Assembly: GCA_012800795.1 (NCBI GenBank)
Contig: JAAZIQ010000060.1
Coordinates: 1-64,000, forward strand
Origin: Bacillota bacterium
GTDB taxonomy: Bacteria > Bacillota > Dethiobacteria > Dethiobacterales > Dethiobacteraceae
Direction: 5' to 3'
Length of the DNA stretch: 64,000 bases
Positions 333-52,397 of the stretch are shown here, one piece after another. The number at the start of each line of letters is the position of its first letter. Position 1 is the stretch's first letter. The position numbers were made by a program, and so were the translations under genes. The notes under the pieces were generated by a model. It was not told the origin of the DNA. It worked only from the letters and a program-made list of their open reading frames with translations, and searched no databases.

Positions 333-388
333 ATAAGATACCGATTTATTTATAATTTTCTATTATGTCCCAAAAAGGAGGCCGAGAT

Positions 389-2330
389 GTGGTTACGTTA
401 ACCATCAATGGGATATCCGTAACGGTGCCGAAAGGTACAACCATACTTACTGCTGCTGAAAGTATCGGCATAGATATCCCTACCCTTTGTTATGATAAGG
501 ATCTCAGCATTGTCGGAGCTAGCCGAATGTGTGTGGTTGAAGTAGAGGGTGCACGTAATTTAGTTGCTGCCTGCTCCACACCGGTTGCGGAAGGCATGAA
601 AGTTGAAACAGAATCGGAACGAGTAGTAAAAGCAAGAAAAACCATTCACTTTGTCATGCAAAAATTTATGCGTGCAGTAATTGGCACAAACAGTGTGGAT
701 CATTGCGCACGTACGTGACACGCTCCAACTGTGCGCAACGCTTGGTAGTGGTGCAATGACCAACTCTATCGGAGAAATTGAATATAACGATGTACTGTTT
801 GTTATCGGCTCCAATGCCCCTGAAGCCCACCCTGTAATTGGCAGTAAAATGAAACGCGCAGCAAGGCGCGGCGCAAAATTGATCGTGGTTGATCCAAGGG
901 AAATAGAGTTAGTAGAACATGCCACACTTTGGTTGCGCATAAAACCGGGTACAGATGCTGCTCTCATCAACGGGTTAATGTAAGTCATCATTACAAACGG
1001 CTGGGAAGATAAAGATTTTATTCGCGAGCGCTGTGAAGGATACGAAGATTTGTGGCGAGTAGTACAAAAATATCCCCCAGAGCGCGTCAGCAAAATAACA
1101 GGAATTCCGGAAGAGCAAATCTATGCTGCTGCTGAGCTTTATGCCAAAACCAAAAAGCTGGCATTTACTACACTTTGGGGATTATAGAGCATACTACCGG
1201 TACAAGCAATGTTATGAATCTTGCCAATCTGGCTATGATTACAGGCCATTTGGGAATAGAAAATGCAGGGATTAATCCTTTACGCGGACAAAACAACGTA
1301 CAAGGTGCCTGCGATATGGGTGCCCTGCCCAATGTTTTCCCCGGTTATCAAGCCATTCACGATCCCCAAATTGCCGCTAAATTTGAACAAGCTTGGCAGA
1401 GAAAATTAAATCCCCAAATGGGCTTTCGTATTCCGGAAATGATGGATATGATCCTACTCGACAAGGTTAAAGCCATGTATATAATGGGCGAAGACCCGGT
1501 CTTAACAGACCCCGACACCAATCATATCCGCAAAGCTCTCGAGCATCTGGATTTTCTGGTTGTTCAAGATTTATTCCTGACTGAAACCGCACAATATGCC
1601 GATGTCTTCCTGCCCGCTGCCTGTTACGCCGAAAAGGACGGCACCTTTACCAACACAGAACGACGCGTCCAGCGTATACGTAAAGCTGTAGAACCACCGG
1701 GGCAGTGCCGCGAAGACTGGGATATTATTTGTGATCTAGCCAGAAGAATGGGCTACGAAATGAACTACCGTAATGCTGAAGAAATCTTTAATGAAATCCG
1801 CAGTCTTACTCCCAGTTATGCCGGAATTAGCTATGGGCGGTTAGACAAAGAAGGCGGCATTCAGTGGCCCTGCCCTTCGGAATCATCCCGGCACACGCTT
1901 TTTACACGAAGGAAAATTCCCTAGGGGCAGAGGACTGCTGCAAGGAATTGAGTATGAGGAACCGGCAGAACTTACCAATGAAGAATACCCAATTCTTTTA
2001 ACAACCGGTCGCATGCTGTACCATTTCAACATCATGACCAGACATTCAAAGAATTTGGATACACTTAGACCATATGAACTTGCACAAATGAACCCTGCAG
2101 ATGCGAAAAAACTTGGGGTATGTGACGGCGAAGAAGTCCGCATCACCTCAAGAAGAGGATCAATAATTGCCAGAATACAAATAACAGACGCAGTACCGCC
2201 CGGTGTGATGTTTATGACATTCCATTACAAGGAATCTCCGGCCAATGTACTTACAAATTCAGTTTTTGATCCCATCTCTAAAACAGCGGAATATAAAGTA
2301 TCTGCAGTTAGAGTAGAAAAAGTATTTTAG
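389..2330 (+). pseudogene. fdhA: Decayed selenocysteine formate dehydrogenase, large subunit
   Basis: GTG at 389 sits 7 bp after AGGAGG. The first ~95 codons encode a 2Fe-2S ferredoxin-like domain (LCYDKDL and SRMC motifs). The frame then jumps directly into the molybdopterin domain ([18 protein letters not shown]), so the linker, the [4Fe-4S] domains and the first molybdopterin-domain cysteines are missing. TGA at 716-718 followed by HAPTV matches the CAR-x-U-H-(S/A)-PTV selenocysteine site of formate dehydrogenases. Further lesions are a frame change near 730, TAA at 981-983, a frame change near 1170 and another near 1884. The intact remainder reaches TAG at 2328-2330 and includes the molydopterin-dinucleotide-binding C-terminal domain. 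The N-terminal ferredoxin domain suggests the NAD(P)-linked type. With this many lesions it cannot be functional. Confidence 0.9.
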
Positions 2331-2552: not shown

Positions 2553-2957
2553 ATGCATTCAAAAACAACCTTTCCCAAAAACAGATTAAAAGCTAAATGT
2601 AAAATTTGGATTGAAGCTGATAAAGCAGTTGTTTTCGGCGGTGGAAGACTTGCTCTGCTGCAGGCAATCGACGAATACGGTTCCATTAATCGTGCAGCGG
2701 CACAACTAGGCATGTCTTACCGTGCCGCTTGGGGGAAAATTACTGCAACCGAAAAACGCTTAGGTATTAAACTGGTAGAGAAACAAATTGGAGGGGCTCG
2801 CAGCGGTTCTAAATTAACACCGGAAGCTAAAAAGCTAATGGATGCTTACCGACAATTTAAACAAGAAGCCATTATCGCCGTTGATAATCTATTCAAGCTG
2901 TATTTTGCGGATATTTGTTTTCCTGTCGAAGCCAAGTCAGATGACGAGCTTGTCTAA
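2553..2957 (+). CDS. ModE-like molybdate regulator, DNA-binding domain only
   Basis: This 134-residue protein is a LysR/ModE-type winged helix-turn-helix. The segment from about residue 38 to 105 carries the family pattern (GSINRAAAQLGMSYRAAW, then GGARSGSKLTPEAKKLM). E. coli ModE has a C-terminal molybdate-binding TOBE pair, but here the protein ends soon after the DNA-binding domain. Molybdate may therefore be sensed by a partner or not at all. The ribosome site GAGGGGGG precedes ATG. The gene lies between fdh and mobB, and its 3' end overlaps the convergent mobB 3' end by 21 bp. It probably binds the shared palindromes at 290-317 and 3767-3814 (inference). A -10-like TATACT precedes it near 2508. 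Confidence 0.8.
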   Translation: MHSKTTFPKNRLKAKCKIWIEADKAVVFGGGRLALLQAIDEYGSINRAAAQLGMSYRAAWGKITATEKRLGIKLVEKQIGGARSGSKLTPEAKKLMDAYRQFKQEAIIAVDNLFKLYFADICFPVEAKSDDELV

Positions 2958-3491
2958 CCTTTTGCAGTGGGTACAGACTTTTTCTGGGACATCCGGCTGC
3001 CAGTCCGCCACTTTTTCTTCCAGAAAATCAACCAGTTTTTCCAGCTCCGTCATTGCATTTATCACTTGCAGGCCCTTATACATCTGCATGGTATTTGCAA
3101 TCCGCCCTGAAATGGCAATAACAGTCTCATCCATTCTTTTATCTATTTCCTCTACCTGCAAAGCAGTAATAATTTTAGGCACATTAGTGTCTGAAACACC
3201 TTCCATGACAACATAATCAAAATCAGCATAAAACTTTAAGATCTCCTGAACAGCAAGTCTGCGGCTAAATAATAGATCTGTTTCGTACTTTCCACGGGCA
3301 GTTACAAGTTGTGCGCCGGCCTTCTTGTGCCTGTCAGTATTTGAACCTTCTGTATCAAGGGCAAATTCCTCACAATGAATTTCTTTAATAGAACCAACGC
3401 TATATCCCCTCTTCATAAGTTCCGGGATAATGTTTTCAATGCTCGTGGTTTTACCGGACCCTTTAACACCAATAACAGAAAAAGCCTTCAT
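2937..3491 (-). CDS. mobB: Molybdopterin-guanine dinucleotide biosynthesis adaptor MobB
   Basis: This 184-residue P-loop GTPase-like protein has Walker A GVKGSGKTT at residues 8-16. It also has the MobB hallmarks KEIHCEEFALDTEGSNTDRHKKAGA and VVMEG. MobB assists MobA in attaching GMP to molybdopterin to make the bis-MGD cofactor used by formate dehydrogenase. The C-terminus has an extra CTHC pair that could bind metal. The ATG follows GGAAGGGAAC. The gene has a 260-nt leader with a structured RNA and terminator, and a promoter embedded in a palindrome, so it looks doubly regulated. It appears intact although the neighbouring fdh is dead, so other Mo enzymes probably remain elsewhere. Confidence 0.9.
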   Translation of the reverse strand: MKAFSVIGVKGSGKTTSIENIIPELMKRGYSVGSIKEIHCEEFALDTEGSNTDRHKKAGAQLVTARGKYETDLLFSRRLAVQEILKFYADFDYVVMEGVSDTNVPKIITALQVEEIDKRMDETVIAISGRIANTMQMYKGLQVINAMTELEKLVDFLEEKVADWQPDVPEKVCTHCKRLDKLVI

Positions 3492-3582: not shown

Positions 3583-3619
3583 GGAAAAAGACAAGGGTAA
3601 CAACTGCCCTGCCCCTTGT
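3583..3619 (-). terminator. Terminator in the mobB leader (riboswitch expression platform)
   Basis: On the minus strand ACAAGGG pairs with CCCTTGT and is followed by CTTTTTCC. It begins right after the 3' arm of the candidate aptamer stem, as expected for a transcription-attenuating riboswitch. mobB starts about 90 nt further downstream. Confidence 0.65.
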
Positions 3620-3718
3620 TTTTCTCCTTTCCAAACGGGAGGCTGTACCGTTTCCAGTACAACCCTATCGGTTTACCGTCATAGGCAAATCCCTTAGACC
3701 GGATAAACTCGGAGAAAA
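3620..3718 (-). ncRNA. Structured mobB leader, probable Moco-type riboswitch aptamer
   Basis: Minus-strand folding by eye gives a closing stem TTTTCTCC/GGAGAAAA (3711-3718 with 3620-3627). Inside it are two hairpins: CCTATgaCGG-TAAA-CCGATAGG, and GTACTG-GAAA-CGGTAC with a GNRA tetraloop. After these comes GCCTCCCGTTTGGAAAGG. The conserved-looking CTCCGAG, GAAA loop and CCTCCC..GGAAAGG elements resemble the Moco RNA motif, which senses molybdenum (or tungsten) cofactor. The location upstream of mobB and the following terminator fit that reading. The family assignment is from memory of the motif. The structure and terminator are seen directly. Confidence 0.65.
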
Positions 3719-3759
3719 TTTTTTATAAACCCACAATATTTAGCACGGCTTTTGTATAG

Positions 3760-3814
3760 ATTATATAATATAGGCAGTCATTATGTCAATGCTGACATAA
3801 TGACTGCCTATATT
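3760..3814 (-). promoter_or_regulatory. mobB promoter with -35 inside a 48-bp inverted repeat
   Basis: Bases 3767-3788 and 3793-3814 are perfect 22-bp complementary arms around a 4-nt loop. Reading the minus strand, the -35 TTGACA (3784-3789) lies in the repeat and TATAAT (3760-3765) follows at 18-bp spacing. The inner core matches the palindrome at 290-317 in 20 of 22 positions. The repeat also lies just past the 3' end of the SecD-like lipoprotein gene, so it may also act as a terminator for it. Confidence 0.7.
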
Positions 3815-3831
3815 ACTACGGAACCTATCTC

Positions 3832-45490: not shown

Positions 45491-45504
45491 ATATTTGCCT
45501 CTTA

Positions 45505-45602
45505 GCGGTCCTTCCCTACGCTGGTATTATCCATCTCAGGTTCAAAGGGTTAATCAGTCACACTGATTTCTCAGCCCGTGCTACGGGCACCCCTAGGCCC
45601 TT
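45505..45602 (-). ncRNA. TPP riboswitch (THI element)
   Basis: The minus strand shows the conserved pieces in order: GGGGTGCCC, GGGCTGAGA, ACCCTTTGAACCTGA and TGGATAATACCAGCGTAGGGAAG. It precedes thiM-thiW and a terminator. Confidence 0.97.
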
Positions 45603-45632
45603 AATATGCAATATGTTATTGTGGCTACTATT

Positions 45633-52097: not shown

Positions 52098-52397
52098 TTA
52101 AATATTTATAAACAAAATCGCCCCTGTAAGTAACAGGGGCGAATATTCTTCGCGGTACCACCTTGTTTTCGCTGCCAAAAAGCAACCTCAGCGGGCAACT
52201 ATCATTGCCCCTCCACAATAACGGGTGGAACCCGGCACAGCCTACAGGGCTTTCGCCTTTCAGTGTGCGGCTCTTAGGATGAATTCACAGCACCAATACC
52301 TGCTTTCTCACACCAGCCGAAAGCTCTCTGAAACGATTGGCTTTGCTGCTACTACTTCCTGGTCATTGCCTTTTGTCGCCAGACTTAAATTAAATTA
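52098..52397 (-). ncRNA. T-box leader, specifier UUC (phenylalanine)
   Basis: The minus strand contains the T-box core AAGGTGGTACCGCG (52148-52164) and a terminator, CGCCCCTGT..ACAGGGGCG (52119-52141) followed by ATTTTG. In Stem I the specifier loop is bounded by AGGA/TCCT below and GCAGCA/TGCTGT above. Its strands are AGTAGTA and GAATTCA, so the specifier codon is TTC. A promoter TTGACA-17-TACACT (52427-52432, 52404-52409) lies upstream. Uncharged tRNA-Phe should promote read-through into the importer operon. Confidence 0.88.

Follow-up and report, generated by a model that had tools for sequence, protein, structure and literature searches.

A probable P3-less molybdenum/tungsten-cofactor riboswitch with a transcription terminator precedes a second mobB gene in a member of the Dethiobacteria

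In a Bacillota bacterium of the class Dethiobacteria, a mobB gene lies beside a broken formate dehydrogenase gene and behind a leader that resembles a structured RNA. The locus raises the question of whether this leader is a riboswitch and, if so, how it would act, which metal form of the pterin cofactor it would sense and what kind of mobB it would control. The window, meaning the whole stretch of DNA that was analysed, comprises 64,000 nucleotides (GenBank assembly GCA_012800795.1, contig JAAZIQ010000060.1, positions 1 to 64,000). The initial annotation had described a structured RNA between a promoter and mobB, with an 8-bp closing stem, two hairpins (one with a GAAA loop) and the segment CCTCCCGTTTGGAAAGG (3642-3626). 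All of these parts were found, and the closing stem, hairpins, promoter and terminator were located on the minus strand, as are all leader features given below. The putative sigma-70-type promoter (TTGACA-18-TATAAT, 3789-3760) was identified as a consensus match only, with 12/12 bases in a consensus scan. The limits first given for the element (3765-3583) had to be redrawn: its parts are real, but the terminator (3584-3564) runs just beyond position 3583, and the aptamer occupies only 3726-3608, narrower than proposed because the RNA starts downstream of the -10 box.

A cmscan search of the whole window matched the leader to RF01055 (Molybdenum/Tungsten riboswitch, Rfam) with 74.3 bits and an E-value of 4.3e-16, against a gathering score of 36 bits, and the match covered model positions 1-135 completely. 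The earlier proposal of a Moco RNA motif was thus strongly borne out by Infernal. The 119-nt aptamer (3726-3608) is closed by P1, whose 8 bp join the 5′ strand UUUUCUCC (3718-3711) to the 3′ strand GGAGAAAA (3627-3620). Inside it, the Rfam alignment and fold place a P2 stem with the conserved CUAAG/UAUG internal loop (3708-3671), a P4 hairpin of 11 pairs with a GAAA loop (3665-3640; also supported by covariation) and, from the alignment, P5 (CC..GG, 3639-3631); the segment CCTCCCGTTTGG corresponds to the end of P4 together with P5. At the site of P3 the alignment contains a gap, with the P3 positions deleted and only the linker CGAUA (3670-3666) in their place. A chance match was rejected given the E-value and the stability of the leader, which folded with a z-score of -4.3 and was more stable than 200/200 shuffled sequences.

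The leader shares with the Moco RNA motif, as described for E. coli moaA (PMC2408646), a full-length match to RF01055, P1, P2, P4 with its GNAA-type loop, P5, the junction nucleotides and a molybdenum-cofactor gene downstream. It differs from the E. coli moaA RNA in lacking P3, in its stand-alone mobB target and in its transcription terminator, whereas the E. coli RNA controls a ribosome site. The proposal of a Moco-type switch therefore stood as regards the RF01055 family, while the missing P3 corresponds to the 'Tuco' architecture, unlike the E. coli-type Moco RNA. Judged by its sequence, the mobB leader belongs to the known Mo/W-cofactor riboswitch family, as a genuine example of its published P3-less sub-form. 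Its position upstream of a Mo-cofactor gene, together with an expression platform, matches the context expected for RF01055, and both mobB as a target and a terminator as the platform are unsurprising for this family, although mobB is not mentioned in the main text of PMC2408646.

The region of the promoter also contains a perfect inverted repeat (3767-3816; 23-bp arms, 4-nt loop) that overlaps the -35 box. Weak Rfam microRNA matches at 3756-3828 are a product of this perfect palindrome and were not taken as microRNAs. No further copy was detected in the genome when allowing up to 2 mismatches to the core, and none was found upstream of related RF01055 RNAs; a role as a repeated operator was rejected on the basis of the single genomic site. 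The repeat may act as an operator, or it may serve the upstream gene as its terminator.

To compare homologous leaders, as the initial annotation had suggested, 129 RF01055 RNAs were extracted from the class, where 68/98 genomes contain the motif above cut-off. Pairs of P1 were counted by anchoring on the GA junction and the AAA, which made 127 RNAs readable; anchored counts were used because a MAFFT alignment of 40 RNAs misplaced the P1 3′ strand, owing to the variable length of P5. Compensatory changes were abundant. All 127 RNAs (508/508 cells) have standard pairs at the four inner positions of P1, where 42 both-sided changes were counted; in 37 of these, C-G at the second position has become U-A. 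For P4, pairs 1-6 are of standard type in 88-96% of RNAs and each shows 45-79 both-sided cells; these percentages lean upwards because the loop was chosen by the longest stem. For both stems the sequences are related, so that cells are not independent events. Even so, the outcome named in the initial annotation as a refutation, no significant covariance-model hit and no compensatory changes, clearly did not arise.

The aptamer is followed by an intrinsic terminator, a 9-bp hairpin (CCGCUUCC-AAGCU-GGAAGUGG, 3584-3564) and UUUUU (3563-3559). Folded as a whole, the leader reaches its minimum energy with a 26-pair hairpin at 3636-3573 (3636-3609 with 3603-3573), a predicted antiterminator that engages both the 5′ arm of the terminator and the 3′ strand of P1, such that GGAGAAAA (3627-3620) would double as part of the alternative structure. 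Imposing P1 brought the terminator back for an energetic cost of 3.2 kcal/mol, and shuffled tails equalled this preference in 9/300 cases. The exact antiterminator is nevertheless treated as a prediction, because the cost drops to 1.2 kcal/mol in a shorter leader and because the same energy comparison in 26 relatives showed no excess over shuffled tails; the latter result is probably due to shuffling also destroying the terminator.

Complementarity across the class gave independent support. Intrinsic terminators follow 93/129 of the homologous RNAs, and across 91 leaders the complementarity of terminator 5′ arms with the GGAAAGGAG strand exceeds that of shuffled arms (mean run 4.43 vs 3.69, z 8.5), while the 3′-arm control was weaker (z 1.9). 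Among 26 representatives, complementarity of the 5′ arm to the P1 3′ region reached z 3.4 (1/300 shuffles), against 1.2 for the 3′ arm. Within the leader's own family (15 leaders) both arms gave z 2.8, hence no contrast between 5′ and 3′ arms is seen there. In the mobB leader, one strand can pair in mutually exclusive ways, serving as the P1 3′ strand or binding the terminator 5′ arm.

These observations suggest a cofactor-OFF transcription switch. At low cofactor levels, the terminator 5′ arm would be captured by the strand that holds P5, the P1 3′ strand and the hairpin next to it, and RNA polymerase would continue through this antiterminator into mobB. At high levels, the mature pterin cofactor would bind the junction of P1, P2 and P4 and keep P1 closed, allowing the terminator at 3584-3564 to form and turning mobB off; through such a switch the cofactor would feed back on a late step of its own maturation. 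We assign a probability of about 0.88 to the reading in which the leader acts as a P3-less RF01055 riboswitch that works through transcription termination and exerts feedback on mobB. Within this model, ligand binding and the OFF sense are inferred. For the family, Regulski et al. 2008 reported that the instability of Moco precluded binding assays such as in-line probing, so that direct binding could not be shown (PMC2408646), and a 2024 paper states that the exact metabolite of these riboswitches is still not identified (PMC10845959).

Which metal the cofactor would carry is a separate question. In Regulski et al. 2008, RNAs lacking P3 were proposed to respond to the tungsten cofactor, since genes of tungsten metabolism were present in 17/19 of the organisms that contain them (PMC2408646). 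The mobB leader shares with the P3-less 'Tuco/Wco' RNAs, for example of Syntrophomonas wolfei (PMC2408646), the absence of P3, the terminators that follow and the presence of tungsten-type enzymes in the organism; it differs in that tupA is undetected in its genome. Neither tupA nor modA was detected in this assembly, which is ~90% complete, and the moaA C-terminal domain was likewise not found in the genome, which contains one moeA. The absence of P3 and three intact genes of the AOR family (open frames of 507-578 aa; metal not provable from sequence) fit a tungsten assignment.

In the class surveyed, however, P3 alone does not separate tungstate genes from molybdate genes. The hairpin is absent from 123/129 RNAs whatever the gene downstream, including moeA, moaA and modA. 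Of the six RNAs that retain it, four precede tatC, one a FecCD-type transporter and one an unassigned gene, and moaA follows tatC within the stretch read in 3/4 of the tatC cases. Contrary to the expectation that P3-less RNAs avoid molybdate-specific genes, four lie directly before modA genes scoring 213-225 bits. ModA is able to carry tungstate too. Because P3-less RNAs are near-universal in the class and four precede modA, the metal cannot be read from the lack of P3 here; this lack is compatible with tungsten sensing without proving it, and is a weak guide. This evidence also lends substance to the strongest alternative, in which RNA and switch are the same, the ligand is the Mo cofactor or either metal form, and the loss of P3 reflects lineage drift in the class. 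Against it stand the near-confinement of P3-less RNAs to tungsten users in Regulski et al. 2008 (PMC2408646) and the presence of the AOR family in 94/98 genomes of the class, with the three intact copies here, and we consider it credible, if the less probable account. On balance we lean towards a ligand containing tungsten or accepting both metals, with molybdenum alone a serious possibility somewhat short of even odds.

A further pattern concerns the leaders of tungstate-transport genes. The junction core CUUCGA(U/C) with GAAG occurs in 27/33 RNAs preceding tupA (e.g. L060, L061, L068, L131), and in 0/60 RNAs before moeA, moaA, mobB, tatC, enzyme or modA genes. The alternative core is CUCCGAG/GGAG, whose CUCC is kept by six tupA RNAs. 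The differences between the two are compensated pairs, with C-G replaced by U-A in P1 and the closing G-C of P2 replaced by U-A. The CUUCGA(U/C) core is mostly found in one family (f3), with 25/27 tupA leaders vs 0/32 moeA leaders, and single cases occur in f5 and f8. It is possible that the CUUCGAU/GAAG core marks metal specificity or reflects common descent, and shared ancestry of the tupA leaders would have to be ruled out first. An unlikely extension of the former idea holds that the absence of P3 is no mark of tungsten, that the coupled junction change instead marks tungstate-transport leaders, and that the mobB RNA, with CUCCGAG, senses Moco or both metals. In three genomes, two RF01055 RNAs lie close together upstream of one tupA in a tandem-like arrangement (L131, G052:C54; L103, G074:C152; L061, G033:C12).

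The mobB gene under this leader (3491-2937, minus strand, ATG at 3491) encodes 184 aa with an intact P-loop (PF03205, E 1.9e-22; TIGR00176 above the curated cut-off). A second mobB on contig C86, 66% identical over residues 1-176, adjoins moeA. About 7 kb upstream of it and in the same direction lies a second P3-less RF01055 RNA (G000:C86:30536-30652, 72.5 bits), followed by an FMN-binding gene, two lipoproteins with the oxidoreductase-molybdopterin domain (Oxidored_molyb), an ABC_cobalt permease and, further down, mobB-moeA (G000:C86:22299-30652; L032, L183). This RNA stands at the head of the operon with the other mobB, and precedes sulphite-oxidase-type genes like two S. wolfei RNAs. Compared with the operon copies, the window mobB ends inside the cysteine-bearing C-terminal part, retaining the CxxC and losing the rest, and it forms a long branch in a small, weakly supported tree. 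What the leader would control is a second mobB copy that has diverged, is shortened at its C-terminus and lies next to a broken fdh.

That fdh, a selenocysteine formate dehydrogenase gene (365-2330, plus strand), is indeed the pseudogene reported in the initial annotation. Relative to an intact paralog on contig C92 it lacks ~240 internal residues and has three frame changes and one stop, which follows residue 'GLM'. The TGA at 716-718, the first stop in the gene, is not itself damage, because it aligns with the selenocysteine codon of three intact paralogs. The accompanying suggestion that other Mo/W enzymes persist was also correct, since the genome has, besides the AOR-family genes, three intact genes of the FDH type, each with TGA in frame where selenocysteine is encoded. 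The decay of fdh, the long branch and missing C-terminal part of the window mobB, and the finding that in the close relatives searched such close copies occur once per genome, with no second mobB of the window kind, could mean that riboswitch and shortened mobB are a relic no longer functionally needed. The intact frame and P-loop of mobB, the intact promoter and terminator, and an aptamer that outscores the RNA of the operon copy (74.3 vs 72.5 bits) make this improbable.

Although Regulski et al. 2008 described both platform types (PMC2408646), control of translation rather than transcription is very unlikely here, as the 9-bp hairpin and U5 stand ~60 nt ahead of the ribosome site and this Shine-Dalgarno-like site (GGAAGGGAAC, 3504-3495) lies outside the predicted alternative pairing. 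The probable riboswitch extends RF01055 by a P3-less member of the terminator type in control of a duplicated mobB. Moreover, the 129 RNAs surveyed in one class provide a test set for what allows this family to discriminate between the tungsten and molybdenum forms of the cofactor, a question dating from 2008.

Convergent with mobB and overlapping its end, positions 2553-2957 (plus strand) encode a protein with a ModE-type DNA-binding domain (TIGR00637, 63.6 bits, below cut-off), in which no molybdate-binding domain was found; a literature search found nothing on TunR-type regulators. Elsewhere on the minus strand of the window, a TPP riboswitch (45496-45604, 79.4 bits) and a T-box leader (52132-52375, 111.3 bits) were observed.
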